From: Plicaturopsis crispa FD-325 SS-3
Taxonomy: Eukaryota; Basidiomycota; Agaricomycetes; Amylocorticiales; Amylocorticiaceae
Direction of reading: 5' to 3'
Assembly (NCBI GenBank): GCA_000827205.1
Contig: KN832565.1
Span: forward strand, 920,905 to 984,904
DNA: 64,000 nt
The notes under the pieces were generated by a model, which searched no databases, was not told the origin of the DNA, and saw nothing but the letters and a program-made list of their open reading frames with translations. Each line of letters begins with the position of its first letter. The stretch's first letter is position 1. Of this stretch, positions 31-52,767 are shown piece after piece. The translations under genes were made by a program, and so were the position numbers.

Positions 31-2058
31 ATGGATGTCGACGACTCACCTGTAACTGCCGAGGTCCCTGGTGAGCTGAAAATTTCTCTCTGTGGGGAAC
101 GACGATTGACCGAATCTAGCCCCCGCAGATGCCGAGCAAACTCACAAGAAAAAGAAGAGAAAACACGACGATGCCCCGGCAGAGGAGACTGTCGACGCAT
201 CTGCAACGAAAAAGGACAAGAAAAAGAAGCAAAAACTCGAATCTGATCCTTCCTCCTCGACGCCTACAGAGGTGCCTACGGCTGTAGACGAATCATCGAA
301 GTCTAGCAAAAAGGACAAGAAGAATAAACGAAAGCTCGAAACCGATCCCTCGCCCTCAGCACCGTCCACATCCACCCCCGTGATCTCAACAAACGCGACA
401 GCGGCCCCCTCGCCATCCGATGTCACTGCCTTTCTCACGAAGCATTCTATAACTCTCCACACTCCGGACGACGAGCCCGCCCCCACGCCTGTCATCTCCT
501 TCGACCAGCTCGCCGTCCCGCCCAGTTTGAGAGCCGCGTTTGCAGGATTTAAGGAGCCGACGCCCATTCAGGCATGTACATGGCCGCCCGCACTCGAAGG
601 CCGCGACGTCGTCGGCGTAGCGGAGACAGGCAGGTATGTGTCCGCCGTTCCACCATCTTACAATATTACATATCTAATGTTACCTGCAGTGGAAAGACCC
701 TTGCGTTTGGTATCCCCGCACTCGCGCGGCTGATCGCCTCCCCCATCTCCGCGAATCCCCAAAAAGCAAAAGCTACCACGACCGTGAGCATCCTCGTCGT
801 AGCGCCGACGCGGGAGCTGGCGATCCAGACGCACGACACGCTGTCGGCGCTCGGCGCACCGTTCGGTATCGCCAGCGTCGCGATTTTCGGCGGCGTGGAC
901 AAGGGTGGGCAGATCCGTACGCTGCAGAATGCGAACAAGGACGGCAAGACAACGAGGATTATTGTCGGCACGCCGGGGCGTATATTAGATCTCATGAACG
1001 ATGGGGCCTGTGATTTGAGTCGGTAAGTGCTGCTTTGCGTTCATTTCTCAGTCTTGATACTAAAGACACTTAGGGTGGATTATCTTGTCCTGGACGAGGC
1101 CGACCGGATGCTCGACAGCGGATTTGAGAATGATATACGGGCGATCATCTCGAATACGAAGCAGGGCAGTGAACGGCAGACAATGATGTGTGAGTTCGAC
1201 TTGGTCTTGGGTGGTCAAGAATAGAATTGACGGTGCTATAGTCAGCGCAACGTGGCCTGAAGCTGTCAGGCGACTAGCGAGTTCATTTCAGCAAAGGCCA
1301 ATTCGTGTCACCGTTGGCAGTGATGATTTGACAGCAAATAGCCGTGTTGAACAAATAGTGGAGGTATTCGACGACGGGCGTACCAAAGAGTGCGTCATTT
1401 TTCTCGATGCATGACATGAAGGCCCCTGACCTCTCCTTCAGCTCTCGCCTGCTCGACCGCCTGCGCCAGCTCGCCCATAAGAAGACGACCAAGACGGGTT
1501 CGGACGAAGCGCGCATTCTTGTCTTCGCGCTCTATAAAAAGGAGGCTTCGCGCGTGGAGCAGATGCTGCGGCGACAGGGGTACTCTGTTGGCGCGCTACA
1601 CGGCGACAAGTCGCAGTCGGCACGGATGGAGGCGCTCGAGGCGTTCAAGAACGGCACGACCGGGCTGCTCGTCGCGACGGACGTCGCCGCGCGTGGGCTG
1701 GACATCCCTAACGTTGGCGCGGTCATCAACTACACCTTCCCGCTCACGATCGAGGACTACATCCACCGCATCGGACGTACCGGTAAGTGCACTTTTTTGA
1801 TGATGCAGACGCGCGTTGCTGACAGGAGGCGTAGGTCGTGGTGGCCGCACAGGCAAGTCGATTACCTTCTTCACCGGTGCCGACCACGAGCGTTCGCTTG
1901 CCGGCGAGCTTGCACGGGTGCTCGGTGATAGCGGGTTCAAGTGCGAGGGGCTGCAGAAATTCCCGATGACGATCAAGAAGAAGACGCACGGCGCGTACGG
2001 CGCATTCTTCAGGGACGACATACCTGTACCCAAGGGCCCGACCAAGATAAAATTCTGA
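31..2058 (+). CDS. DBP3: DEAD-box ATP-dependent RNA helicase, DBP3-like
   Basis: Predicted nucleolar RNA helicase of 60S ribosomal subunit assembly. Seven exons can be joined in frame: 31-70, 129-633, 690-1022, 1074-1189, 1242-1389, 1442-1782 and 1835-2058, giving 568 aa. The N-terminal 100 residues are lysine-rich with repeated KKDKK blocks, as expected for a nucleolar protein. The helicase core is complete: Q-motif PTPIQA, motif I AETGSGKT (about 178-185, split by an intron), DEAD (300-303), SAT (333-335) and HRIGRTGRGG (about 489-497). The phrase VAETGSGKT after [10 protein letters not shown] is typical of DBP3, as is the short C-terminal tail. The frame is open upstream of the ATG at 31, so the start could lie outside the window. 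Assignment to DBP3 rather than a sister helicase (DBP2, DBP5) is from remembered family patterns. Confidence 0.9.
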
Positions 2059-36009: not shown

Positions 36010-36018
36010 AAGGCTTAG
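36010..36018 (+). repeat. Target-site duplication, left copy (9 bp)
   Basis: The bases AAGGCTTAG directly precede the left terminal inverted repeat and are repeated exactly at 52759-52767 directly after the right one. This is the footprint of one insertion event for everything between. Confidence 0.93.
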
Positions 36019-36119
36019 TAGTCTCGGATCCAGCCGTTTTCGGAGTTTCAAAACCCAAGACACAGAACCTCCTACAACGTCTGGTGCACTGTGTAAGGGA
36101 CACCCCCGCGCAGGTCACA
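36019..36119 (+). repeat. Left terminal inverted repeat (101 bp)
   Basis: Identical, base for base, to the reverse complement of 52658-52758. Beyond position 101 the two ends keep a weaker resemblance for about 25-30 bp (both contain ATCACG followed by a CCAAAA-type run), then differ. Confidence 0.95.
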
Positions 36120-36467
36120 TCAGGGGTATCACGCTTCCAAAACGGTGTATTTTGTTACGGTGACACTCCTTAACGAGTTATACGCCCCTATCTGGAAGCG
36201 CTACGCTACGCTCACTCTTTGCTTTGCAAGTCATTGACTGCACGAAGGCATGCCACGAAGACATGTCATTCCTGCCTTAGAGTATACGTGAAAACAAGAG
36301 CATATGCCCTTTGAAAGAGGTGTCTTTCAAGTCAGTTCTGGAGTGAATTCTATTGCAATCAATGTGGGCTTTCTTTGCTAAGCAGACTCTGGCTCTTGGA
36401 AAAATTGGTGACCGTGTTTTCGTATCAAAAACAACACTCAAAAGCGATTATTATAGCTCTATCCTAT
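36120..36467 (+). promoter_or_regulatory. Subterminal region and DUF6589 leader
   Basis: 348 bp between the left TIR and the chosen DUF6589 start codon. It includes the diverged extension of the TIR and presumably the promoter of the DUF6589 gene. An open frame from 36375 would extend the protein upstream by about 30 residues but lacks family character. Confidence 0.45.
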
Positions 36468-38642
36468 ATGTCTGAACCACTTGCACAAGAAGATACCGCG
36501 GAAACCAGCCAACCAGCTTGGGGAAATATATTTCTTCATGATGACTCCGAGGATCCAATGGCTCGAGAAGAGCCCGAAAGCGACAGCGACTGCAGTAGCG
36601 ACGACGACGACGATTCGGACTACGACCCGGACGCTATGGACGTGGACGAGGAGAGTGACGAAGGTGCAGAGGAGGTGCGAGGAACTGTGCCGTATCACGA
36701 GCACACGGAGAGGCGAAGAAAGCGGCTATCCGAGGACAGACAGCGCAATGAATTGGCCGGTAACCCTGTCGAAACAATCCCAACGAAGGTCGCAAGAGTT
36801 CTATACACATTGGACGTCCTGGGCCTCGACTTGCCAATTTTTCTGGACGCGCTAAGCTGGGGCGGAGACGAGAACTATGGCTCCGGGACGCCGTCCGAGG
36901 CACGCTCGATCCAGTACGCGCGCTCGTCGCTGCTGCATAGCAAAGAGCTGCCCGGGATTCTGGAGCGCTGGTGGAAGCCGCCGCGCTCGAAAAAGTCGAA
37001 GAGATCGAGGCCGAAAGGAGCGAAGACCAGTATGGAGGCATTTGCAGTGAAGTGCGTGGATAGCGTCCGCGAACGGGAGATGAAAGGTGTCGCGGAGCTT
37101 CTCCGATCGCCGTCGGGCGAGGACTTGAAGGAGGAGACCCTGACGAGCATTAACTTCGATGAGATGGGCGAGGAAATCCGGGCACGCGCACCGACAGTCT
37201 GGACATTGTTGCGAGGAGCCGCATACAGCGCTAAGCAAGAAAAACGAAACAAGATGAAAAATCCTGATAAAGTGCGTCGAATGGTAATTGCTTACCGTGT
37301 AGCGCTAAACCAGCTGCGCTAGGTTGTGCTCATGACAATCGCGATGCTGGCGTACACGCGAAATCATCGCCATGGTCGCATGCAAAAGATGTTCGCGGTG
37401 TATCTGAAGTTTCGTGGACTCTCAGCGAAGGCTTTCGACACTCTCCACGCACTCGGAGTTACAATGAGTCATAAATGGACATGCAATGCCGTCGAGACCA
37501 TGTCTAAGAACGCGATGACCGAAGTCGTCAATATGATTCAACAACATCCCTTCTTTATCTCGCATGATAACGTCAACATACCGTTTCGTGTGTTCTCCCA
37601 GCGGCTCGACAATAAAGGAGAATTCGGAAATGGTACCGCTGCGACTGTATATGTCAAAAGGAACGCTAAGCAGCTGCCAAAAGACGAGAATCGAAACTTA
37701 CAGGAGACGCGCGCGGAGGGGTTGAAGAAGCCGTTGGAGATTCTCGAGATCATGGAGATGGACCTCGAATCAGCCGGGCGCATACAGGACCGCATGTGCG
37801 ACGAGGTCCTTCAGTTCCTCATCGGATCGCCCGAGTTCGACTTGAAGACATACGTGCACGGGGACAGTGCCCTTCTTCAGCGGCTTCCTGCCGTCCGTCC
37901 GCTTCCATGTGGTCCGGAGAACATCACACTGCAGTATATGCTGGGGACGGTCGATATCCCCGAGGCTAGCTACGCCGATAATGACCGTCTGCTTATCGAG
38001 TGGCTCCGGCAGCTGAGAAAGGATGCGCCCGATGAAAAGAGACGATTAGCGCTCGAGCAACTCATCGTGTGGGTAGGCGATCAGCTCACCGTCGATCGTA
38101 TTCGAGGGCTTTTCAAGGCTCGTGCTGAGGATCTAAACTCCTACGACCGGATGGACTGGATAGTGCCAGCGTTCGGGTGGCTGCACCTCGAGATGGCGGT
38201 CGAGAACTCCATACACAAGCAGTACCTTGGTACATCATCGGGCAGGGGTCTAGCACACGATTTCGCAGTCCTGGAACGAAAGGGATTGTCGTCAGTGCTC
38301 ACGAAGGGGCCGTTCCATCACAATCTCCAAGAAGCACTCTACCACATCGCAGAAGCCCATATACGTATCGATTTATGCATGGTCGCCGGCGTCTCTGACC
38401 TCAAAGAGCTCCGCAAGAAGTCGCCGGAAGAGCTGGTAGAGTTAGCGAGGGCTGTTGTTGAAGAGCACGCGTCCACTGCAGCTATCGACAAGATTAGCCA
38501 CGGTACATCGGAGGACAAACAAGACGAAATCAAGAGGCAAACCATTATGTTCAACCGCGATGTTCTCCAGTACATCGTCCTGGATCACGCTATCAAACAC
38601 GGCGACGTTGGGATCATGGAGGACTCTTTACCGCAACTTTTG
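36468..38642 (+). CDS. DUF6589-domain protein, putative transposase; 5' part of interrupted gene
   Basis: Two exons, 36468-37271 and 37323-38642, encode about 708 residues before the gene is interrupted by the nested retrotransposon; coding resumes at 48818. The N-terminus has a long acidic tract (about 25-65), then a conserved region with YTLDVLGLDLPIFLDALSWG. After the intron comes the DUF6589 domain: RGLSAKAFDTLHALG, SHDNVNIPFR (D about 350), YVHGDSALLQR (D about 449), WVGDQLTVDRIRG (D about 521) and GWLHLEMAVENSIHKQY (E about 558). These evenly spaced acidic residues in conserved blocks could form an RNase H-fold DDE-type catalytic site, which is inference. Position between TIRs supports a transposase role. 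Start at 36468 (MSEPLAQEDT) was preferred over the upstream frame. A host gene unrelated to transposition is the alternative reading. Confidence 0.85.
38638..38642 (+). repeat. Target-site duplication of the LTR element, left copy (5 bp)
   Basis: TTTTG immediately precedes the left LTR and recurs at 48813-48817 immediately after the right LTR. It belongs to the DUF6589 coding sequence, so it marks where the retrotransposon entered. Confidence 0.9.
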
Positions 38643-38843
38643 TGTTAAGGGGTGATTTAGAGTCCTTAGAATCACACCTGTAGCTTAACGGGTCCAATCT
38701 CTAAATGATATTAGGATGGATGCGAATGAGCGTAGGTGGATGAGGATGCCCGCATCCGACCCAACGGCTCATGAGCATAACTACAAGCGAACAAATATAT
38801 GTAAATACGCGCCACAGGCGCGCCACGATCCACGTCCGTTACA
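38643..38843 (-). repeat. Left LTR (3' LTR in element sense), 201 bp
   Basis: Starts TGTTAAGG and ends CCGTTACA on the plus strand, giving TG..CA ends. It is identical to 48612-48812. A small open frame inside is present in both copies and is not considered a gene. Confidence 0.95.
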
Positions 38844-38854
38844 CCCTCCCCCTC
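38844..38854 (-). other. Polypurine tract candidate
   Basis: In element sense this is GAGGGGGAGGG, directly next to the 3' LTR, which is where plus-strand DNA synthesis is primed in LTR elements. Between it and the third open frame (38855-39034) I see no further feature. Confidence 0.7.
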
Positions 38855-39034
38855 AGGATGAGACCCTAGGATCAGCCGAAATAGCAAAGTTCTGTGCAAA
38901 ATTTTTACGCGGTAGTTGAATACCGGTAGGGGTTTACGACCCTGACGCCGACATGTAGCGTTTCTGCCACCATGCCTAAGTCCTTTCGATGGTAAGCAAC
39001 ACCAGTTGATGGTGTGCTGAGAACTTCCCCACAC

Positions 39035-41449
39035 TTAGTTGGGGCCCTGCTGAGGGTCGTGATCCACGGCCATAGCCGCTTGAGAACGCGGTGACCGTGG
39101 CGACGCTACGCCGGGGTGCGATGGTTCGGGAGGGGGGTCGTCGGTCAAGAATACCGGCGCGACGAAGCCCGGGAATGCTCGTATAGCGGTGTGGTATCCG
39201 GGAATGCGGCCCTGCATGCGTTGCACCGTCGACTGCAAGTCTGTGAGACCTGCCGTGAACGGTGCCGCGTCGGTAGGGTGGCGGCCGAGGCGCATGTTGC
39301 GACGTGAGCGCGCGTAACGCTCGATGCCCACGTAAAGGGGTAGTTGGGGGTCGCCGCCGTGCATGCGGATCCAGAAGGCGATGTGGGCATAATTCGCGTT
39401 TGACGCGTCGATTGGGTAGGGAGCCGGAGTCAAGCCGCCCAGCGGGTATTGCCCCTGTGCGACTATCCATCCGTACAACCCAGGGATAGAGAAAAGCTCG
39501 ATCGCCTGCTCTCTGAAGAGAGAGTGTTGGCGATCCTGGTTCGAGCTACGAGAATGGGATCCAGGCGGGGTGAATAGACGGAGTATGTGGACGGCGTCGA
39601 CATCCGACATACGCGGGGTCTGCCTTGCTAGCGGACCCGCGGGCAGAGGTAGGATGTCGGGCTCGGCCCTCACTCCAATGGGCCACTGGGATGGTGGCAC
39701 ATTGTTGCAATAGTGATAGAACAATGCGTCATTGCTCATCTCACGCAGTGCTGTGATTTCGTTGTCCCCCTCGATAGCTATGGCATCGTGGGGGCGCACC
39801 GTTGCCGCCGAAGAGCTCGATCCTGCTGTCGACGTAGTCGATGCCGGAGGGCCCACCGGCTGCTGAACGTTGGCGGGGGAGGGAGTACGCGGCGGGGGGG
39901 CGTGGTCATCGGTGCCGGACTGCATTGGCGACGCCCCACCCATCACACGCGTCTGCTCGTCGTTGTACTCCTTGATCCGCTGACGTTTACCACGCACTTT
40001 CGTGCTGGTCTCGTCGGGGGCCAAGGTGTGGCGATTGATGCGGCGCACAGCCGCGTTGCGACGATTGCGACCATCCTGGCAGTACTTTTTGTACCACCGG
40101 AATAGCTGCTTGGCCGCAACATCGCCACCCACGGCCTGGCGATACAGTTCCGCGCCTTCGCGTTCTGTAACCATGGGGGCGTCAGCCCACTTGCCCAGCT
40201 CGCTCCGCGGAAGTGGTTCCAGCGGCACGAGCGGGGTTTTGTTGCGCCTTGTCCAAGCCTGTTGGACGCGCGCATTCTCCTTGAGCTCCGGGTTCATGCG
40301 CGCGTCGTCCGAGACGTAATCGTCGTCGGGGTACGAGTCCTCGCCGTCGTCGTCGTCATCATCGGTGGCGATCATGTCGCGCCGCGAGGCTTCGTCCCGA
40401 GCGATGCGTTCCGCGTTCCGGGAGCCAGACGAACCCGCGGTGTGAGCAGGGCTCTGCACCGACGACGTCGCTGGTCCGGAGGGGACGCCTGAAGCGTAGG
40501 GCACGCGCGGGCCAAATGGCCCCACAGAGGTGGCCAGCGGGGCTGAGGGAGCATGCTGGGAGCTCGACAGCCCTTGGGCTGACGAACTCGCGGCCGCCCG
40601 TGTACTCGCCGAGTGCGGTTGCGACGCCATCTGTGCTGCCCATTGGTTCAGCCCAGGGGTCGGCGCAATCGGTCCAAACGACTGCTGAGGGGGCTCGGGG
40701 GAGTGGCGAGCCTTTTTGCCCTTCCAACCGTTGTCGGGGGCGGATATGGCCGCGGGGCCCTTTGGCTGCTGCCGTCGATTAGACTGGCCGGAGCGTATGG
40801 GGCCCGCTTGCGACTGCCGCGATCCCATGGGGCTTATGGAACGAGGCGGTTGAGGAGGTGGAGGAGGGTACGGCGACGGTCGGGGGTTCCCACTCGACAC
40901 CAGCTCTAGCTCGAGTCTGTCGACGTGGGTCGACAGCGTTCGAAGCTTAGCCTCGAGCGTGGTATTGTGGGATACCGCGTCATCCCGCTCCTGCCTCAGT
41001 CGGGAAACCATCTGTTGCAGGCGATGGCTACGTAGCCGAGAGGCCTCTAACATCCGGTCCATTTCGGACTCGGCTGCAGAGGCCCGCTCTGCTTCGCGCC
41101 GATCGGCGTCGGGTCCCCCTCCCCTCTCGTGGCGGCCGTCAGGACGCCATGTCGACGCCTCCAAGCCTGCCCCGGGCGACGCATCACGCATCTCTGCGTC
41201 AGGCGCCGCGGGTGCCGGCTGTGGAGCGCCGTACGGCGGATACGCGTACGGGAAGCCGTACGGTGGGTATGCCGGCGCGGGCGCGTAGGGGCCGCCTCCA
41301 TGTGGGAACGAGGGCGGCGGTGGGTAGTATTGTGGGGGCGGCCAAACCGGCGCCGCGCCCTGCGGGACGCCATACGACTGGAAGTCGTAGGAGCCCTGCG
41401 GGGCCGGTGGGCGCTGGTCGGCCTGGTTGTTTTGCGAGTTGTTGGGCAT
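39035..41449 (-). CDS. Additional open frame of the LTR element downstream of pol, 804 aa
   Basis: Lies between pol and the 3' LTR on the element's sense strand. The first 90 residues are rich in Pro, Tyr, Gln and Gly. About 115-180 is charged and helical (SEMDRMLEASRLRSHRLQQM) and may form a coiled coil. The middle is Ser/Pro/Ala-rich and disordered with a short acidic run (DDDDDDGEDS). The C-terminal 300 residues look folded. I see no membrane segment, so it does not look like an envelope gene. I do not recognise the family. Most Gypsy elements have no such gene, so it may be an acquired accessory gene. Confidence 0.6.
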   Translation of the reverse strand: MPNNSQNNQADQRPPAPQGSYDFQSYGVPQGAAPVWPPPQYYPPPPSFPHGGGPYAPAPAYPPYGFPYAYPPYGAPQPAPAAPDAEMRDASPGAGLEASTWRPDGRHERGGGPDADRREAERASAAESEMDRMLEASRLRSHRLQQMVSRLRQERDDAVSHNTTLEAKLRTLSTHVDRLELELVSSGNPRPSPYPPPPPQPPRSISPMGSRQSQAGPIRSGQSNRRQQPKGPAAISAPDNGWKGKKARHSPEPPQQSFGPIAPTPGLNQWAAQMASQPHSASTRAAASSSAQGLSSSQHAPSAPLATSVGPFGPRVPYASGVPSGPATSSVQSPAHTAGSSGSRNAERIARDEASRRDMIATDDDDDDGEDSYPDDDYVSDDARMNPELKENARVQQAWTRRNKTPLVPLEPLPRSELGKWADAPMVTEREGAELYRQAVGGDVAAKQLFRWYKKYCQDGRNRRNAAVRRINRHTLAPDETSTKVRGKRQRIKEYNDEQTRVMGGASPMQSGTDDHAPPPRTPSPANVQQPVGPPASTTSTAGSSSSAATVRPHDAIAIEGDNEITALREMSNDALFYHYCNNVPPSQWPIGVRAEPDILPLPAGPLARQTPRMSDVDAVHILRLFTPPGSHSRSSNQDRQHSLFREQAIELFSIPGLYGWIVAQGQYPLGGLTPAPYPIDASNANYAHIAFWIRMHGGDPQLPLYVGIERYARSRRNMRLGRHPTDAAPFTAGLTDLQSTVQRMQGRIPGYHTAIRAFPGFVAPVFLTDDPPPEPSHPGVASPRSPRSQAAMAVDHDPQQGPN

Positions 41450-41731
41450 TGTGCTGGTGCAGACGCAAAGCGGCGGCGGTGGTGTGGTGGGAGTAGGAAG
41501 GAGAGGACAAAAAATGGCGAGGATATTAAGGGCTCGAAGTGAAAACTTCGAGCGCTTAAACTCTCCATTGTCTCGGGTCCGATCGAATTCCGCAACAATG
41601 CCGAGTCGATGCCGCGGCCTGGGCTGCGGTTATCACCGGCACGTCACCTGATCCACATGACCGAACGCGACGCGACTTAAGTGTGCGGAAGCTGTCTCTC
41701 GCATAGCACCTGTCGTGCATCGTTAGCTACC

Positions 41732-44700
41732 TCATTTCGAGGCAGCTTTGCGCGGCAGCTTCTGCCACTTGTCGACCCCCATTAATTCCAGATAATCATC
41801 GAGCGCCGACAGTTCATCGCAGCTCGATAATGGCTCCCAGCTATGGTCGCCGTGAATCCAGTGTATTAAGAATGTGATTTTCTTGCCCACCCACTGATGG
41901 CCGGCTATTTCTTGGACCCGCCACTCCTCATCGTCAGGAGTGCCGAAGTCGTAGGGTTTACGAGATTCTCGGCCCGGGAATAGCAAGTCATCATTGGGCT
42001 CGAACGCGCGCAGAAGGTTCTCGTGAAATGTGGGGTGTATACGGCGAGCAGTCATCTCCGCAGGCAGGTCTAGCGTATACGTAGACGTCTCCGGAAATGC
42101 CGCAGCCACCGTGTACGGGCCAATGTATTTCGGCGCGAGCTTTCGCGCGCGATCCTTCGGCAAGTTCAAGTTCACGGTGGACAAATAAACTTTGTCCCCC
42201 ACAGAAAATGGCGCGATCACCGCTCTGCGCTTGTTAGCCTGAACGGTGGACCGCACGCGTGCCTCTATAATTGAGTCATGCGCCATTTCGAGGTGCATAC
42301 GAGCCCGGAGTGCGAATTCGCGAACTCCTGGGTACTTCGCATCGGCGTCGCGAAATGGGGCCATACGGGGCATGTGGCCGTAGTTCAGTTCAAATGGAGC
42401 GAATCCCGTTGAACTGCTAATGCTCGAGTTAATTGCAAATTCGGCCAGTGGTATCATGTCCAACCAGTCCGATTGGTCGGACTTGACCATAGATCGCAGT
42501 ATCTGGCCCACATTACGGATGGCGCGCTCTGACGCCCCGTCCGTTTGTGGGTGAAATGACGTGGACATCAGTAGTTTCGTGCCCGTGAGTCGGTGAAGTT
42601 CCTGCCAAAATTTGGCCGTGAACTTAGCGTCTCTATCGGACACGATACTCTCTGGGATCCCATGCAGTCGTACAATATCCCGCAGGTAAAACTGGGCCAG
42701 TTCAGCGGACGTGTTGCGCACGCTAAGGGGCACCAGGTGTACCATGCTGGTTAGCCTGCAGATGACCACCCACAAGTAATCAAATCCTCCGGAAGGCGGG
42801 AAGGGGCCCACGAAATCCATGCCGACGGACCGCCAGGGTTCCACCGGTATGGGCATCGAGTGCAATAGGCCCGCCTTCGGTTGATTGCTCGTCTTGGATG
42901 TCAGACAAGTTTCGCAGGATATGCAAAACTTTTCGATGTCCTTCCCGATACGAGGCCACCAGTACCAGCGCCGGATGTACTCCGACGTCTTCTGGTACCC
43001 AAAGTGGCCGAGAATCTGGTGAGCTTCCGATATAATAATCTCCTGCAGCGTCCTCTTGCCATTCAACGATCGCGGCACGCATAAACACTCAGAGCCAAGT
43101 CGGCTCTTAGTGTATATGAGGCCATGAGCGACTCGGAATGAGGGGAACGCTGCCGGGTTTGCGATTATCTTGGAGAACAAGTTATCGATAGCGTACCCAG
43201 CCTTAATGGCCGGCAGGACCGTCACGTCGCCCTCAATTCGAGGACGCAGTGCTGGGCCTGCTTGCAGAGCGTCGGCTAAGCTGATATGGCCATCGGTGTG
43301 TGGTACTGCCCGTACCGCGCTAGCGGCTAACTCATCGGCTTCCAGTACTCGGGCCTCAACGCCTTCGAGTACTCGTCGCGCATGTATGTCAGCCGTTGGC
43401 AAGCGGGTGCGCAGTATCTCATCGCGTCGTATACCTGGCAGATCCTCGAGATCGGGGTCCAGGCGCACATCGGCGTTCACATAGTGCTCCATCGGCTGAA
43501 CCTCGTCGGCTCTGTCGTTCTCGTAGTATCGAGACAGGCAGTCCGCGACTTTATTTATTTCACCAGGGATGTGCGTGATCTCGAAGTCGAATGGGGAGAG
43601 GTACTCGTCCCATCTGACTAATCGACCATTGCGCCCATCCCGTGCGACCGTTTTTATTGTCGTCAGTGCCTCATGGTCGGTGACGATGTGGAACTTCCGA
43701 CCAATCAATTTATCCTCCCATTTCAGCAGCGCCTCGATAACTCCCAACGCCTCGTGCTCGTATGTCTTGTACGAACGCTGAGCCGCAGTGAATTTCTTGG
43801 ACATGAACCCCGCCGGGCGACAATTACGCCAGTCGGGGCCTTGACCATAGAAGGCGCCGGTCCCATACGGACATGCGTCGACTACCACCCAGATGGGATC
43901 AGGGTTCTTAGGGTCAATAGGTCGCAAGATCGGTGTCTTACGAGCTATGTCCTTTATCCTGTCCATACACACTTGGTGGAACGCGCGCCATTGAAACGGC
44001 TGGCCGTTGCGGCACATCGTCTCCAGGGACGATGTATAAGCCGATACGTCCGGCATGAAGTGCGCAATGTATTGCACGAGACCAACAAATCGTTGGACTT
44101 CGTTCAACGACCGCGGGGCTCGCCATTCAAGAATGCGCGCCATTTTGTCGCTGTCGGCATGCAGGCCGGCATCGTCAATAACGTGCCCAAGGCAGTCCAT
44201 TCTCTCCGAATATATATCACATTTCTTCCGGCTAAGGTGAAGTCCCTCGCGCTGGAGAATATCCGATATAATTCGCAGATGTCGTTCATGATCCTCGATG
44301 CTATCTGAGTATATGAAGATATCATCGAGGTATACATGTACGAAGTCGGACAGGTATTCACGGAATAGCCAGGTCATCAGGCGCTGGAACGTAGCAGGGG
44401 CGTTACAATCACCCTGCTGCATTACATGCGAGATGGCCGTGCCAAACGTTGTAGCGAATGCCGTCTTCCACACATCATCAGGATTGACACGAATTTGTTC
44501 GTAGGCGTCCGACATATCGATTTTGGATCGATATTTCGCTCGCGCTACGTCCATTCGTATCTGATCCTGGTCGGGAAATGGGGTGACGTCCTTGAACGTG
44601 TTATCGTTGCGCTGTCGCGCATCGACGACCGTCCTCAGTCCGCCGTCCTTCTTGGGGATACACAAGAGGGGTGCGCACTGAGAGGCAGGCTTCATTTCCC

Positions 44701-45280
44701 ACCAACCCGCGTCCACATAGCGATTCATTTTATCGCGAAGTGGCTGTTTGAGGGCGTCAGGACACCTAGGTAAATGGTACGTGTACCTCGCGTTCTCGTC
44801 GATGAGTGGTATGTTGTGCACCACATCTCGCAGAGGCGGGAGTTCCAGAGGTAACGGTCCTAGTATATCTGCGCATCGCTCAAACCAGCGGGCGCGAAGC
44901 CCAGGTATTTCAGGCGCTGAGTACGTTATACGCTCCCCGCGCTGAACTGCCTGTGCTCGCAATTCCGCTATAAATGCTTCGTTCAACCCATACGGGTCTT
45001 CGTGACCGAACACATCCCTCGGCACCTCAAATTGAGTGTGCTGTGTGGGCGGTGCCGGTTCCGCGATGACAGGTATTTGGGCGGCTGTCGCCTGAGTCCT
45101 CGATCCGTGGAATCGTGGAATGGTATCATACGATGCTCCGGGCACCGCATTTTTGCTAGTCAACTCATCGGCGATGAGTTCATCTAGCAATATTTCCGCG
45201 TCGTCGTTTTTCTTCACCGGGTCATCGGCTGCATCGGGGACGTCCTCCACCGATGCTCGCCGGGAGCGCGCGGGCTCCAC
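41732..45280 (-). CDS. pol: Pol polyprotein (RT, RNase H, integrase, chromodomain)
   Basis: Frame of 1,182 aa. Reverse transcriptase has the catalytic YLDD at about 317-320. RNase H begins near 462 (WVVVDACPYGTGA). The integrase zinc-binding HHCC module is near 754-792 (HQILGHFGYQ ... CISCETC), followed by the DDE core with acidic residues near 822, 882 and 918. A C-terminal GPY/F-like stretch (KYIGPYTV) and a chromodomain (about 1110-1165, with FLIHWIHGDHSWEP) place it with the chromoviruses of Ty3/Gypsy. Chromodomains in this group are known to guide integration to marked chromatin. Confidence 0.95.
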   Translation of the reverse strand: MEPARSRRASVEDVPDAADDPVKKNDDAEILLDELIADELTSKNAVPGASYDTIPRFHGSRTQATAAQIPVIAEPAPPTQHTQFEVPRDVFGHEDPYGLNEAFIAELRAQAVQRGERITYSAPEIPGLRARWFERCADILGPLPLELPPLRDVVHNIPLIDENARYTYHLPRCPDALKQPLRDKMNRYVDAGWWEMKPASQCAPLLCIPKKDGGLRTVVDARQRNDNTFKDVTPFPDQDQIRMDVARAKYRSKIDMSDAYEQIRVNPDDVWKTAFATTFGTAISHVMQQGDCNAPATFQRLMTWLFREYLSDFVHVYLDDIFIYSDSIEDHERHLRIISDILQREGLHLSRKKCDIYSERMDCLGHVIDDAGLHADSDKMARILEWRAPRSLNEVQRFVGLVQYIAHFMPDVSAYTSSLETMCRNGQPFQWRAFHQVCMDRIKDIARKTPILRPIDPKNPDPIWVVVDACPYGTGAFYGQGPDWRNCRPAGFMSKKFTAAQRSYKTYEHEALGVIEALLKWEDKLIGRKFHIVTDHEALTTIKTVARDGRNGRLVRWDEYLSPFDFEITHIPGEINKVADCLSRYYENDRADEVQPMEHYVNADVRLDPDLEDLPGIRRDEILRTRLPTADIHARRVLEGVEARVLEADELAASAVRAVPHTDGHISLADALQAGPALRPRIEGDVTVLPAIKAGYAIDNLFSKIIANPAAFPSFRVAHGLIYTKSRLGSECLCVPRSLNGKRTLQEIIISEAHQILGHFGYQKTSEYIRRWYWWPRIGKDIEKFCISCETCLTSKTSNQPKAGLLHSMPIPVEPWRSVGMDFVGPFPPSGGFDYLWVVICRLTSMVHLVPLSVRNTSAELAQFYLRDIVRLHGIPESIVSDRDAKFTAKFWQELHRLTGTKLLMSTSFHPQTDGASERAIRNVGQILRSMVKSDQSDWLDMIPLAEFAINSSISSSTGFAPFELNYGHMPRMAPFRDADAKYPGVREFALRARMHLEMAHDSIIEARVRSTVQANKRRAVIAPFSVGDKVYLSTVNLNLPKDRARKLAPKYIGPYTVAAAFPETSTYTLDLPAEMTARRIHPTFHENLLRAFEPNDDLLFPGRESRKPYDFGTPDDEEWRVQEIAGHQWVGKKITFLIHWIHGDHSWEPLSSCDELSALDDYLELMGVDKWQKLPRKAASK

Positions 45281-45304
45281 TTTAGTCGAGACCGCGCCGT
45301 CCCG

Positions 45305-48300
45305 TCAAGCCGACGCTGGTCGCTCTGGCGCCTCCACGTCCCAAGGCTTACGAGGAGCAGGGGGCCGCTTAGCGACAAGTGCGTTTTCTTCGGTGAACGA
45401 TAGTGTATGTAGCATCACGTCACCAATGCGCACACAGTTGTTCCCGAAGTCCAAGCACACATTGTGCGAGTTCATAAAGGGTGTCCCTATGATGCAGTCG
45501 TAGCGATCCAAGTTGACTATGTCAAAGTATACTTCCTCGGCAATGCCGCCGAAGTTTACTGGGACCTTGGTGCCATAACTGATCTTGGAACGGCTACCCA
45601 CGCAACCCAACTGCAGGGTCACTTGCTCGTCCAGTGTTATGCGTGGTGCTTTCGTCACCCGCGCAAACTCTGGCGTTATCGAGTCAGTGGTGCTCCCTGA
45701 GTCGAACAGCGTGTATGCCTTCACGCCATTTATCTCAACCTCAGCAGCGAGTGTCGTCTGGGATCGACCGTCGCGGTGAGGTTGCACCGTATCACCGGTG
45801 GATTTGCGGCGGCCAACATTGGCTGAATGTACCATGTTCGCGGCGCGAATGTGTACCACCTCGTCGGTAGTCCGCATTGCACCAATTCGAACATGACGCT
45901 CTGGAAGGGGATCGTCGTTGACCGAGTTCGATTCCTGTTCGGATTCGTACTGGGATCCCCCCCATGAGTTATGGTCCTCGTCTTCAAATTCCCGCTCGTA
46001 TTCTTCCCCAGTGTCCACGTCGACTAGTCGCTGAGCGTTTAGTCGACGTGTACCCGGTACTACCCGCTGACTGTACTTGGGGCACTTGGGGTCATTAGCG
46101 TAGTGACCCCGAATCCCGCATGTAAAGCAGTCGATGTTTGTCGCATCCCGAGGTGGGCGCTTAGTGAACTCACGGGTAGCCGAAGGCTGGGCCGGAGTCG
46201 CTGTCGGTTTCGCCAGCGCATCCGCAGCCGCGTTGCCGTCCGGTCGAACACGGGTCACAGGAACAAATCTAGTTCCAGAGGTCGAGGGTAGGGCCCCACT
46301 CACCGTACTCCTAGACGAGCGGAGTAGCGGTATGGACTGCTCAATCTGCCGAGCATTCAGGCGTAGGTCATCCAAGTCCGAATGCTCCGCCGACAGCCCT
46401 CGATGCTCGATCAGTTTATTATATATCGACGTCGGGAGTCCAGCCATAAAACGACTGCGCAGCATGTACTCCCCTGGGTATTCCACCATTCGGGAGGCAT
46501 ACTTGAGCAGCGTAGTATAGAATCCGTCAACGCCGAGCGCGGCGGTGTACTTGCATGCGTCAAAGTCGTCTGACGCCTGCTTAGCCGTCGCGCTGTTGAC
46601 GAATCGCCGCAGCATCATGCATATAAGTTCGGGGAACTTGATGATCCGCGGGCGAAGTCTCGGGTTGAGTACTTCACGCGTGAGCCACTCGCTGGCGTTA
46701 CCCGTCAGGAAATTCGCGAGCAAGTCACTCCGGATCTGATCACAAGCGTCACCACACAGGTTATGGCTTCGCAGCCACGCCAAGTATGAGGACAACCAGG
46801 ATATGAACGTGTCATAGTTGTCACTTCCGTCGTACGATGGAGGATCTTTCAACTTGGGTTGCTTGGCGCCCGATGGTAAGGGCGCCAGTGCATGCCCAAC
46901 TTGAAGATCTATCATGTCACGGATGTCTTCCAATAACGATGCGTGATGTTCCACATAAGATGTCTCGTCGCGAGTGCTGCGGCCGGCTTTCGTTATGCTC
47001 GAGCCTGCCCTAGCACTCGTATCATCCGGACGATAGTATGGGTACGACGCTCGCTGAGATACACTGCTACTAGTCACGGGTTGTTGCCCGCGAATGTAAT
47101 CGCGTTCATCGCGGCTGTATTCAATCCCGTCTGGTAGAGGGGATGGAGTACGATTATCCGCGAATCTCACCGCGGCCGAAGTTGCTCTTCTACTAGTTTG
47201 CGACTCCGCCCGCCGGGCGTTCGTGTTGCTGCGTCCCCAAGATTCCCGCGATTGCGCGGCCATCTTGTGGGCGGCATCTACACGTCCTTGAAATTGTTCA
47301 ATAGTTTCTGCAGGTCCCCTGGGAGCTACTTCTCGGTCAATCTCCTCTCGCAACCCCGGGGAGCGATCAATAATCACATCCGCGGTTGGGGTAGGCGATC
47401 GCTCAATGATAGCCGCTACCGGGTGAACCGGCTGGTGTTGTGGCAGTTTGCCTGAGAACAGCAGTCGCAGTGAGCGCTCAGTTTCACCGGATTCCCTGAG
47501 ATGACGCAACGTGTCGTCGATCGCCCTATTGGTGCGAGACTTCAGGTCGTTGATCTCAAGGTTAGTGTCACTGAGAGCTTGGTATACGCCACGCATATTG
47601 CTCTCGACTTTGGAGACGATAGCACCATGCGTGGAGTGTAGTTGAGCCGACGTACGGAGATGACGACGCAAGAACGATTGATCATTAGACACTTGTTTAA
47701 GTGCGCTACGCTGATCCTCGTTGAGCGACTGCCAGAGCTCCGCCAGTCGAGGGGACAAAGCGTCCGTCTCAGATGTTTCGCCATATTCCTCAGCAGGTCT
47801 ACTCACCCCGAGGTCCGGTGCTAGCGAGTTTCCTCGTCCAGCTAACGGCGACGGCGGGGTGGTCAGTACCTCACGACTAGCGCGGGTATTGGACCTGTCC
47901 AGGTGAGGTGGCGAATCGTATTGCGAGATGTCTCGTCGACCAGTCGGGGGTGTACGAATCGTCCCGTGTTCGTGCGTTGAACTACCCGTAATCGGGTAGT
48001 TCGTACTCGATATCGGTGACTCTTGCACACTCATGGTTTCCTCGATCGTCGACAGTGTGGGCCGTACCGCCTGTGGCTGGTACGGGGTACTGCTGTACGG
48101 CTCGCGGGACATCGCTGACTGCATGTACAAGTTCGTACCTGCCGTCGCCGGTGCCTCCGTGCTCTGGTCAAACAGTTCTGGTCGCTGGTCCGAATTCAGA
48201 CCAGAGGCCATCCCTGCTTGTCGCCGAGATGGGGGTTCGTCCGACTGCAATGACCGTCGCCAATTGCCTTCAGATCCTTGCCTCGCGTGCTCGGTCTCTT

Positions 48301-48565
48301 CAGGAGACTCCGCGTGGCGAGGATGGGTTAAATTTGATGAGAAAGCGCCCGAGGCTGCAGCCGTTCGGGCGCTATCGCCATTTTGGGAGTCATCAGCTTC
48401 TCCCGCGGCCTCGGGGAACGCGCGTGTCGCGCCTCGAGGCTCGCGGCCAAGTTGCTGTCCCTCGGGGTTCGTTCTAGGAGATTCGGGCATGCCGAATCGT
48501 GTTTTGGGTGCGTTTGGTGGGTTTTTGTATAATCCAAACGCGATTTGGGCGCTTGTAGAGTCCAA
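45305..48565 (-). CDS. gag: Gag and aspartic protease region of the LTR element
   Basis: Frame of 1,086 aa just upstream of pol. The N-terminal half is Ser/Thr/Pro-rich and looks disordered; a retrotransposon Gag-type helical core follows at about 570-740 (with YDTFISWLSSYLAWLRSHN). A zinc knuckle of pattern C-x2-C-x4-H-x6-C lies near 825 (CFTCGIRGHYANDPKC). The aspartic protease active site is LFDSGSTTDS near 966-975. The order Gag core, knuckle, protease is as expected for Ty3/Gypsy. Confidence 0.9.
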   Translation of the reverse strand: MDSTSAQIAFGLYKNPPNAPKTRFGMPESPRTNPEGQQLGREPRGATRAFPEAAGEADDSQNGDSARTAAASGAFSSNLTHPRHAESPEETEHARQGSEGNWRRSLQSDEPPSRRQAGMASGLNSDQRPELFDQSTEAPATAGTNLYMQSAMSREPYSSTPYQPQAVRPTLSTIEETMSVQESPISSTNYPITGSSTHEHGTIRTPPTGRRDISQYDSPPHLDRSNTRASREVLTTPPSPLAGRGNSLAPDLGVSRPAEEYGETSETDALSPRLAELWQSLNEDQRSALKQVSNDQSFLRRHLRTSAQLHSTHGAIVSKVESNMRGVYQALSDTNLEINDLKSRTNRAIDDTLRHLRESGETERSLRLLFSGKLPQHQPVHPVAAIIERSPTPTADVIIDRSPGLREEIDREVAPRGPAETIEQFQGRVDAAHKMAAQSRESWGRSNTNARRAESQTSRRATSAAVRFADNRTPSPLPDGIEYSRDERDYIRGQQPVTSSSVSQRASYPYYRPDDTSARAGSSITKAGRSTRDETSYVEHHASLLEDIRDMIDLQVGHALAPLPSGAKQPKLKDPPSYDGSDNYDTFISWLSSYLAWLRSHNLCGDACDQIRSDLLANFLTGNASEWLTREVLNPRLRPRIIKFPELICMMLRRFVNSATAKQASDDFDACKYTAALGVDGFYTTLLKYASRMVEYPGEYMLRSRFMAGLPTSIYNKLIEHRGLSAEHSDLDDLRLNARQIEQSIPLLRSSRSTVSGALPSTSGTRFVPVTRVRPDGNAAADALAKPTATPAQPSATREFTKRPPRDATNIDCFTCGIRGHYANDPKCPKYSQRVVPGTRRLNAQRLVDVDTGEEYEREFEDEDHNSWGGSQYESEQESNSVNDDPLPERHVRIGAMRTTDEVVHIRAANMVHSANVGRRKSTGDTVQPHRDGRSQTTLAAEVEINGVKAYTLFDSGSTTDSITPEFARVTKAPRITLDEQVTLQLGCVGSRSKISYGTKVPVNFGGIAEEVYFDIVNLDRYDCIIGTPFMNSHNVCLDFGNNCVRIGDVMLHTLSFTEENALVAKRPPAPRKPWDVEAPERPASA

Positions 48566-48611
48566 ATGTCGAGTAGAAGCTCGAGTTTTCGAGCAATGGC
48601 GTTAAAAAAAG

Positions 48612-48812
48612 TGTTAAGGGGTGATTTAGAGTCCTTAGAATCACACCTGTAGCTTAACGGGTCCAATCTCTAAATGATATTAGGATGGATGCGAATGAGC
48701 GTAGGTGGATGAGGATGCCCGCATCCGACCCAACGGCTCATGAGCATAACTACAAGCGAACAAATATATGTAAATACGCGCCACAGGCGCGCCACGATCC
48801 ACGTCCGTTACA
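48612..48812 (-). repeat. Right LTR (5' LTR in element sense), 201 bp
   Basis: Identical to 38643-38843. In sense it starts TGTAACGG and ends CCTTAACA. I could not recognise a tRNA primer-binding site directly next to it; the adjacent sense sequence starts with a T-run rather than TGG. Confidence 0.95.
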
Positions 48813-48817
48813 TTTTG
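48813..48817 (+). repeat. Target-site duplication of the LTR element, right copy (5 bp)
   Basis: TTTTG directly after the right LTR, matching 38638-38642. Confidence 0.9.
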
Positions 48818-49482
48818 TTCCGCTTTCAAGGCAGCGGTCAGTCAAACTATGCGACGGAGATCCTGGAGCTGCTTCAAAACTTGCGGAGGGAATGGCCAGA
48901 GGAACTACGGTACGGCAATCGTTCAATCTCCGAGACACAACCACTGAACGAATATGCATACCTTCAACAGCGAGTTCGTCATAACAAACTGCTGGCTTCT
49001 CAATTTTGGGGGACGACGGGACGGGTTTGTGCCAGTAGACATGGCACAGGAGCACAATATAAAGGATATCAAAGTCAGTCACTCGCAATAATCCTATGCA
49101 GGCGGAGGTAGCTGAGCTGCTGTAGGTAACGTACCACTCGGAAGGGCCAAATATCGACTGGGCCTATTTGAAGAAGATGCACCCTGCCGTGCGCATAATT
49201 CGAGCACTGTCGCAGCACATGGAGCAGGACTTTGGAACCCTGAACCGAGGCAACAAACACGGCATACCTAAAAAAGACCGAGACGTCAGAAAACTACAAG
49301 ACTCGTATCTAGCTTCGCGCACTCACGAAACATATCCAAATGGACGCAAGGCTAAATCAGAGAATCGCGCACTCGATGTCGTGAATGTAGGCTGCATTAG
49401 TCTGCAAAACGGCGACAAAATGAAGGAATGGATTAGTGGCCGAAGCTTCAGAAGGTCAATGCAACAGAAGTGGAAGGAATGA
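48818..49482 (+). CDS. DUF6589-domain protein, 3' part of interrupted gene
   Basis: Continues the reading frame that is broken off at 38642, with the conserved C-terminal blocks of the family. First FRFQGSGQSNYATEILELLQ (ending at 48909), then after an intron (48910-48970) REFVITNCWLLNFGGRRDGF and DMAQEHNIKDIK. After a second intron (about 49073-49123) come VTYHSEGPNIDWAYLKKMHP and a basic, Lys/Arg-rich tail. The TGA at 49480-49482 directly abuts the stop codon of the convergent RecQ-like gene. Without the retrotransposon the full protein would be close to 900 aa. This fragment has no start of its own and is probably not translated in this copy. Confidence 0.85.
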
Positions 49483-52400
49483 TTATTTCGATGTTCTGCC
49501 GTGTCCATAAGTATTTGTATCGGTGTAGTTATCTAGGGCCCCAGGCATTCCAAAAGCGAGCGTGATGCCGGGATTGTTAGACGTTGACTCGGAAGCGCTC
49601 GAATTTGTGGAGGGTGAATGGGGCGAAGGATGCTGCGCAGGTGATATTGAATAGTCGCCGGGAAATGCATTGAGCGCATACGACAAACGAGAAACGGGCG
49701 GCGAAGGATGGCCGTATGGATATGGATATGGTTGAGAGTTATACACTAACGCGCCCGGTGTCGTTGGAGAAGTGGCGGCATGAGGCGCTCCCGAGAAGAA
49801 AGGTAATGGCATAGGCAGGTAAGGCATTGGGTACTGAGCCGCGAAGGGGTGCCGGTTGGAGGAAATAGGCGACGCAAATGCGACGCCAGATGGTGACGGT
49901 GCAGACGAGGAAGAACTCTCGCTCAACGAGGCCGGAAGATAGGGATGAAACGGTGGTGCGCGCTGGCTTATGTACGCTGGGCTCGGGGGAGTGCCATACG
50001 AGTTCGCCGGATTACTATCCTGTACATGACGAGCAAGGTCAATCGACGAATTGAATGACAGAACTAAAATAAAGGTGCTTACCTGCTGAGCCTGCTGAGC
50101 ACGAGGCGTCGAAGTCCCCATGTTGAAGGTAAACGAGCCAACAAGTGTGGAGGAAGCTGGCGCTCGAGCGGCATCACGTATCGCGGCACGCTCGTCCCTC
50201 TTCCGCGCACTCGCTGCTAGCCTTTGCTCCCTTTCCTTTTCCTTCCTATCGGCCGTGGCTTGCTTTTTCTTTGCACTCTTCTCAGCTTTGGCTTGCTCGA
50301 GCGCCGCTTTCCTCGCCACGTCAACACGCCGAATAACCTCAAGTACCTCCTCGCCATGCTTCTTAGCGAAGATCCACGGTGTCTTGAGCGCCAGCAAGTC
50401 GTCGACGGTTTTCAAGGAGGTTTTTGTCGCTAGCGCCGTAAGAGTCGGGTCGGGGAGAATTGCGGACGTCGCAAACGAGCTCGGTGAGTACATGTCGCGT
50501 TTTTTGCGGTAGCGCCAAGTCTCGAGGCACGCACGGACATCCTTCAGGTGGTCACCCCGGCGATTCGACGGGCGCTTTGGTTGGCTCCCCATGGGTCGTT
50601 TGCCGTTGACGTTCAGCATCGTCGATGGCTTGGAGTGTCTTCCAATGGCCCGCGACCTGCGCATACCCCGCTCGCCTTCGCTGCCGCCGTCGTCTGATTC
50701 AGACGAGGACTCGGCGTCTTCGTCATCGGTGGGATCCCCGTAATCGTCGTCTGATTCGTCTTCATGATCTCTCGAGGTGCCCGGATCTAATTGCTCTGAA
50801 GCCCGGAGTCCTTGACGAGCGACATCTTCAGCCGTCTGCATGCATCGGTCGCAGCAGGCACCGGTAGGGGCTACAATCTTCGATCAGTCCCCGTAGTCTC
50901 CAAATCCAAATCACTGGCACTCACCCTTTCGCGGACGAGGGCTATCGAAATACTCGTCTGATACATCCCGGCGACAACCAGGCGCCTGGATCCACCTGCG
51001 AAACGGCTCCTCCACTTTACGCGCCCATACCTTCCCATCATCCTCGATCGGATGTTGGCGCCCTTGAATTTCGTTCGGAGATGGGTCCACGTTGGTAGAT
51101 TGCACGGTCTCGTCCTCAGTGCCAGCGCCTTCGTCCTCAGCATTCACGATGTACATCGCGTCGTCGCCAGCCTCGCCTTTCTTTCTCTTCCTTCGATGAA
51201 ACATGGATTCTTCGACTAGTAAATAGACCGAAGCGTGCACGCCAGGTGAGCGCCCCGCACGACCGGCGCGTTGGGTCCATATTGATAACGATTTGCAGAG
51301 TCCAAACTGAATGACGCGTGTTATATTGGGTATATCGGCACCCTGTCATATTGATGAGTACGGAATTGAACAAATATGAGATATACTGAACTCACCATGC
51401 CTGCTGCCTCCGTCGCCACCAGAATCTTGACCACACCTTTCGAAAACCGCTCCATCACATCCTCTTTGGCAAACTCCGTTCGCCGTGAGCTCAGGCAGTC
51501 GATAGCATCGTGGAAATCATTCGGAAACCAGCTCCGGATTTCTCGCACCAAGTGCTGCGTGGACGCGACACTGTCGATGTATACGACGGTCTGTTCGAGG
51601 TCTTCGGGGGAAATAACGCCAGTTGTAATGAGTCGTTTGAGTTCCGTATAATCGTTTGTGCTTTTGATGCGGATGACCGTCGGGGTGAGGTTTGGGCGAT
51701 CGTTTCCAAGATTGAGAAAAAAGGACTTGGGGAGGTCGATATTGAGCTTCATGCAAGTCTCAGTAAGAGCAGCTGAGGGCAAGGTTGCAGACGTAGCAAG
51801 AAAAGGTATGTGCGTGGGTACAAAAGCACGAAACTTCTCAACAAGAGAATACTTCGGACGGAATTCCCCGCCCCACTGTGAAATACAGTGGCATTCGTCG
51901 ATTATGAATGCGGTAATCCTTTCCGCATATGCTTTCGATCCAAGTAGCTCCCGTATTGCAGGATTCTCCAAGCCCATCTCTGGAGACAGCAAGATGGCAC
52001 GCCACTTGAGGTCCTTCAATTCCTGCCATCGATGATGATGTGAGAGAGACCATGAGGCTCGGGTCTGATGAAACGACTGCTGTATTATGTACATACCTGA
52101 TGCAGTCGCTCATTCCACGTTTGTTTGTTCACAGGTACTGCTGCAATCCCCATCTTCTCAAACCGCGCTGCCTGTCAACCACATTGAGACTGAGTGCAAA
52201 AAGTAGAGGCTCCTTGGGCACACACCATGTCTTTCTCAAGGATGTTGAGAGGGGAAATGATGACGACAATCTTGGTCTTGTCATGTAGCAGCGGCATCAT
52301 GAATGGCATCGTTTTGCCCGCACCGGTCCCTGCAATAACCACCGAGTCGAGTCCGAGAAGAAGCGCTTCGGTGACATCGACTTGCCATTCATGAGGCGCA

Positions 52401-52549
52401 GATCCAAAACGATCCGTAAAGGCTTTGCGAAGGGCTTCCCGAGTTGTTGCTGATGCATAACCCCGAGCCTGAGTAGCTGTCTCGCGTGCAGCTTGAAGAT
52501 TATCATGAGAGCGTTTGAGCCGGGCATCGAGGGCAGGTTGTTGAGCCAT
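49483..52549 (-). CDS. RecQ-like DNA helicase carried by the DNA transposon
   Basis: Superfamily-2 helicase of about 930 aa in six exons. Exon 1 is 52549-52226; later boundaries lie near 52168/52092, 52019/51400, 51348/50925, 50872/50082 and 50025. Motif I is GTGAGKT (74-80). Motif II is DECH (175-178) within IIDECHCISQWGGEFRP, the RecQ motif 0/II signature with Cys in place of the usual Ala. The core continues with TSATL (motif III) and QRAGRAGRS (motif VI). A Cys pair GACCDRC suggests an RQC-type zinc site. An HRDC-like helical module (ILPDPTLTALATKTSLKTV) precedes a Lys/Arg/Ala helix and a Pro/Ser-rich disordered tail of about 180 residues. It should unwind DNA 3' to 5'. It starts 109 bp inside the right TIR, suggesting the TIR region provides its promoter. 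It appears intact. Confidence 0.9.
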
Positions 52550-52657
52550 GGACAGATATGTATTCACGCAGAAAACAGTGAAAATATTCGACGCGGCGCT
52601 GCGACGCGCTATCACGTGGATTAAATTAATGCCATTTTTGGGACGTGATGTTACGAT

Positions 52658-52758
52658 TGTGACCTGCGCGGGGGTGTCCCTTACACAGTGCACCAGACGT
52701 TGTAGGAGGTTCTGTGTCTTGGGTTTTGAAACTCCGAAAACGGCTGGATCCGAGACTA
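52658..52758 (-). repeat. Right terminal inverted repeat (101 bp)
   Basis: Exact reverse complement of 36019-36119, ending GGATCCGAGACTA on the plus strand. It lies just upstream of the RecQ-like gene. Confidence 0.95.
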
Positions 52759-52767
52759 AAGGCTTAG
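52759..52767 (+). repeat. Target-site duplication, right copy (9 bp)
   Basis: AAGGCTTAG, identical to 36010-36018, directly outside the right TIR. Confidence 0.93.

Follow-up and report, generated by a model that had tools for sequence, protein, structure and literature searches.

The question raised by this locus is whether the two genes enclosed by long inverted repeats in a 64,000-nucleotide stretch of the Plicaturopsis crispa FD-325 SS-3 genome (the window) form a DNA transposon and, if so, which gene moves it and to which lineage it belongs. One gene encodes a protein of the Pfam family DUF6589 (PF20231) and the other a RecQ-like helicase. With a probability of about 0.86, we consider the element to be a DNA transposon with two genes that belongs to AcademH, a lineage of the Academ superfamily; DUF6589 would be its transposase and the RecQ-like helicase an accessory protein.

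The terminal inverted repeats (TIRs) lie at 36019–36145 (plus strand) and 52632–52758 (minus strand). The two arms are 127 nt each and 91% alike, their outer 101 nt (to 36119 on the left) are identical, and the pair is the only inverted repeat of at least 60 nt reported in the window. The sequence AAGGCTTAG stands directly outside both arms, at 36010–36018 and 52759–52767, as an exact 9-bp target site duplication (TSD). Apart from a nested Ty3/Gypsy-type long terminal repeat (LTR) retrotransposon (38643–48812, minus strand), which is not part of the transposon proper, just two genes lie between the TIRs. The gene for DUF6589, a predicted DDE transposase, is on the plus strand; its 5′ part (36468–38642) is cut off by the LTR insertion after 38642, and its 3′ part (48813–49482) runs up to the stop codon. 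The gene for the RecQ-like superfamily 2 helicase, which has several exons and whose family was assigned from another copy, L009, lies convergently at 49483–52549 on the minus strand. Without the nested insertion the element measures about 6.56 kb, and the unnested copy L009 measures 6502 bp. A first-pass annotation of this DNA had described the perfect 101-bp repeats, the exact flanking 9-bp duplication, the two convergent genes and the size of about 6.56 kb, all of which agree with these results.

The window TIR gave 23 matches in the host genome, grouped into 12 loci, and no match in the plasmid collection. Three loci (L013, L018, and L019) had no recognizable second end and were excluded when TSDs were counted. 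All nine loci with both ends carried an exact 9-bp TSD, the nine duplications were all different, and all 18 ends started with TAGTCTCG. The long copies are those of the window, L009, and L010 (8278 bp), and the others are short (1.1–1.7 kb) or miss an end. The six short two-ended copies have only the terminal 100–140 bp in common with the long copies and form two sets, L011 and L012 with the TIR type of the window and L009, and L014–L017 with TIRs closer to the type of L010. These gene-less elements are presumably mobilized in trans. We also scanned 19 DUF6589 loci for a TIR plus an 8- to 11-bp TSD, using 190 sequences shuffled in 3-base blocks as the control. Seven loci were positive (L009, L010, L023, L027, L030, L036, and L037), each with a TSD of 9 bp, and the shuffled sequences gave four matches in all. 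The exact 9-bp TSDs of the nine two-ended copies, together with the shuffled control, indicate that the TIR/TSD structure did not arise by chance. The feature in the window is a real TIR DNA transposon, as first proposed, and it has spread as a unit with a 9-bp target duplication; the further copies by which the proposal was to be judged, which share the TIRs and differ in their 9-bp TSDs, are present in the host genome.

Empty sites were sought by joining 80 bases from each flank of 15 copies with one duplication and searching the host genome. Paralogous empty sites were obtained for two of the 15 copies (L014 and L016). The L014 junction was spanned by nine matches elsewhere with 95–99% identity, eight of equal length and one with a one-base difference, and by six additional weaker matches (77–88%); the L016 junction had one match (95%) with a one-base difference. 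The expectation of empty sites thus held for two copies, within the same genome, and not for the window site, which was among the remaining 13 for which the 40 candidates scored, of 52, included no such junction match. In the left flank of the window element, a 499-base stretch matched nothing but itself in the host genome.

PF20231 was above the cut-off in 26 clusters of the host genome, 22 of which were examined for gene pairing. An opposite-strand helicase match was present within the stretch examined at 20 of the 22 loci, the pair being convergent in 17 and divergent in three (L020, L021, and L022). The helicase matches were weak at four of the 20 (L022–L025; E 1e-5 to 8e-4), and none was found at L031 and L039, where 3.0 and 4.5 kb were masked. 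L026, a neighbour of L025 outside the 22, had a helicase match and no DUF6589 match. Viewed from the helicase, 15 of the 17 genome-wide matches of a window helicase piece adjoin an opposite-strand DUF6589 locus; the two matches that lack such a neighbour are at C28:55939 and C3:1689975. These 15 matches support the initial suggestion that a shared mobile element underlies the multiplicity of both genes: the two travel on one mobile element, and therefore DUF6589 and RecQ-like helicases are both multicopy in the host genome.

Five of the loci positive in the scan (L023, L027, L030, L036, and L037) are diverged and lie outside the TIR family, with TIRs and 9-bp TSDs of their own. The scan gave nothing at 12 of the 19 loci, and it found no TIR or TSD at the divergent loci L020, L021, and L022. 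In many diverged copies the ends appear to be lost, unrecognizable, or invisible to the scan used. A looser scan of 22 loci, in which YAG ends were required, added L025 (probable) and L032 (doubtful). L032 was not counted as a TSD-bearing copy because it was found by the looser scan only and its repeat arms are unequally distant from the ends. An inner TIR/TSD pair of L037 (1013–8027) was set aside as an artefact, as it falls inside the outer TIR arms and has an almost palindromic 9-mer.

In regard to the DUF6589 protein, the window gene matched PF20231 with an E value of 3.8e-77, and three stretches of it matched the deposited P. crispa protein PLICRDRAFT_114722 (P0001) with 98.8, 100, and 100% identity. 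The window gene is interrupted, whereas L009 has gene models for both genes that are open through GT-AG introns and fill most of the copy, encoding a DUF6589 protein of 890 residues and a helicase of 908 residues. The DUF6589 stretches of the window, L020, L021, and L023 matched PF20231 alone at the thresholds used; the N-terminal piece in the window gave only a CDC45 match below the cut-off, and the L009 protein had no sequence match in the PDB up to E 1. When a confident structure model of one DUF6589 protein was compared with solved structures, ranks 1–35 were all DDE transposases or recombinases. The closest solved folds were those of hAT (Hermes) and the P element, with 8–10% identity in the structural alignments. 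Conserved D/D/E candidates are D276, D447 of GDQLT, and E647 or E650 (P0008 numbering). Because of the DDE-type predicted fold and these conserved candidates, DUF6589 is most likely the DDE transposase of the element and not its cargo, as the first-pass annotation had put it.

Three protein searches for DUF6589 relatives, each with about 8000 candidates scored, gave 249, 232, and 427 matches. Among the best 120 of each, every named organism is a basidiomycete, and we take these organisms, from their names, to be Agaricomycetes. UniRef lists one relative, a Ganoderma boninense DUF6589 protein (P0137), under the name "Type 1 capsular polysaccharide biosynthesis protein J (CapJ)", which is apparently a misannotation. 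Among the papers that literature searches listed, aside from those on AcademH, none hinted in its title or the opening of its abstract at a pairing of these two genes. The term DUF6589 was absent from the literature searched, in which PF20231 turned up in a physics paper only. The statement that DUF6589 is an AcademH-type transposase may therefore be new; it is possibly implicit in Repbase or elsewhere.

The second gene is a RecQ-like superfamily 2 helicase by sequence kinship. The L009 protein matched DEAD (1.7e-19) and Helicase_C (6.4e-15) in Pfam, two pieces of the window gene were above the DEAD cut-off, and the first 37 of the 60 PDB sequence matches shown for L009 (106 in total) had RecQ-family or "ATP-dependent DNA helicase" names. 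No HRDC or RQC domain match was obtained for the L009 protein in Pfam; an HRDC domain suspected by eye in the helicase tail was dropped, as it had no Pfam match up to E 1. A further weak helicase match lies outside the element, at 1584–1835 (plus strand) of the window (28%, E 2e-7).

We compared the window and L009 copies to estimate the ratio of nonsynonymous to synonymous substitution (dN/dS). The ratios were 0.041 (435 codons) and 0.040 (115 codons) for two DUF6589 exons and 0.031 (209 codons) for one helicase exon. These low values in exons of both genes indicate, at the level of sequence comparison, that both proteins are selected for function. The dS values were 0.95 and 0.77 for the DUF6589 exons and 0.24 for the helicase exon. 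As a separate observation, the alignment of window 36019–52758 with L009:1060–7561 is a mosaic: the two copies are far more similar in the TIRs and the helicase 5′ part than in the DUF6589 gene. At the DNA level, identity is 96% at the left end, 79–90% in the DUF6589 exons that precede the insert, and as low as 56–87% in the helicase 3′ part; between window position 51484, in the helicase 5′ part, and the right end it is 93–100%. This pattern suggests recombination or gene conversion between copies.

The nested retrotransposon has identical LTRs of 201 bp each (38643–38843 and 48612–48812) and the TSD TTTTG (38638–38642 and 48813–48817). Its pol open reading frame (ORF) matched reverse transcriptase, RNase H, and integrase zinc-binding domains above the cut-off and the integrase core below it, and the ORF before pol gave gag and protease matches, both below the cut-off. 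An extra ORF of 804 aa (39035–41449, minus strand) between pol and the 3′ LTR had no Pfam match beyond a weak coiled-coil one (Rootletin), which was below the cut-off. PLICRDRAFT_114722 matches both sides of the LTR element, so that the deposited gene model seems to have skipped about 10 kb of retrotransposon as though this were an intron.

These results are consistent with the following mechanism. DUF6589 would be an RNase-H-fold DDE enzyme with its catalytic residues among the conserved candidates. It would bind the inverted repeats of about 100 bp and pair the ends. As its predicted fold suggests, it would cut the ends and join them to the target across a 9-bp stagger, repair of which would produce the 9-bp duplication. 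The RecQ-like helicase would serve as an accessory transposition enzyme, most likely by unwinding the transposon ends or strand-transfer intermediates. The short elements that have the same TIRs without matching genes would move by means of proteins supplied in trans. In Academ elements the transposase is accompanied by a helicase or else by a nuclease, which suggests that a displaced strand needs processing during Academ transposition.

AcademH is a transposon group already described in fungi and animals, the primary paper reportedly being Kojima 2020, Mob DNA 11:15. AcademH has been described as comprising fungal DNA transposons of a DDD/E transposase superfamily that encode a helicase and have TSDs of 9 or 10 bp (PMC10045372, PMC10799480, PMC8290104), and putative nonautonomous Academ elements have been reported in another mushroom (PMC8290104). 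The P. crispa element likewise encodes a helicase, with DEAD and Helicase_C domains in L009 and RecQ kinship; its TSD is 9 bp in all nine two-ended copies, and DUF6589 is a DDD/E transposase as judged from the predicted fold and conserved residues. This comparison is one of descriptions, not of transposase sequences, and it showed no differing feature. The first-pass annotation knew of no named superfamily with this gene pair and left open whether it is undescribed; the AcademH description does not support the lack of a named superfamily. Two readings would nevertheless place DUF6589 outside Academ. In one, which we regard as improbable, the DUF6589 elements constitute a distinct transposase superfamily, which includes lineages with convergent and lineages with divergent gene pairs and in which the helicase is obligatory for the reaction. 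In the other, which is slightly less probable still, they are a separate DDE superfamily that came to resemble AcademH in gene content and TSD length by convergence. The latter reading is favoured by the lack of a sequence link to an Academ transposase, as none of the listed homologues (best 120 of 249, 232, and 427) is named transposase or Academ; however, AcademH as described fits the element in gene content (a DDE transposase with a helicase), in the 9-bp TSD, and in the occurrence in a basidiomycete.

It is very unlikely that DUF6589 and the helicase are passengers of an unrelated transposase acting in trans. The short copies with the same TIRs that lack the two genes make mobilization in trans likely, but the two genes are together at 20 of the 22 loci examined, many of them widely diverged, strong purifying selection acts on exons of both, the predicted fold of DUF6589 is like that of DDE transposases, and the two gene models occupy most of L009. 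Under the AcademH reading, DUF6589 proteins, which have entered the databases from many mushrooms under the name "hypothetical protein", acquire a likely function. The reading is also a caution that a RecQ-like helicase in a mushroom genome may belong to a transposon and not to the repair machinery of the host. With its two genes and defined ends, the element would lend itself to testing what a RecQ-like helicase does in DNA transposition.

Among other known systems, AcademX is described as a member of the same superfamily that carries a nuclease and has TSDs of 3 or 4 bp, whereas the P. crispa element has a helicase and a 9-bp TSD. No nuclease domain was above the cut-off in the Pfam scans of the element; RestrictionMunI was below it, and ResIII (PF04851), which we take to be a helicase-type ATPase domain, was slightly above its own. 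KolobokH, likewise a DDE transposon of fungi, is described as carrying a RecQ helicase downstream of its transposase domain (PMC9587614). The P. crispa helicase is instead a separate gene on the opposite strand. The target duplication of Kolobok is TTAA, whereas 15 different 9-bp TSDs were found here (the nine of the TIR family and those of L023, L025, L027, L030, L036, and L037), one of which, GTTAAATTT, has TTAA inside. KolobokH membership was rejected on gene layout and target duplication. MuDR and other Mutator-like elements (MULEs) have TSDs of about 9 bp and long TIRs, and the resemblance to Mutator first pointed out holds for TIR and TSD length and not for kinship: that DUF6589 is a diverged MULE transposase is hardly credible, as the DUF6589 stretches scanned (window, L020, L021, and L023) had no MULE transposase domain match, and Mutator membership was rejected. 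hAT (Hermes) and the P element, the closest solved folds to the DUF6589 model, have 8-bp TSDs and are not known to carry a helicase gene, whereas the P. crispa TSD is 9 bp and no 8-bp TSD was found in the 19-locus scan that allowed it. Because a helicase together with 9 or 10-bp TSDs is the description of AcademH, the element most likely represents a new family within a lineage already known, and neither an undescribed superfamily nor a Mutator element.
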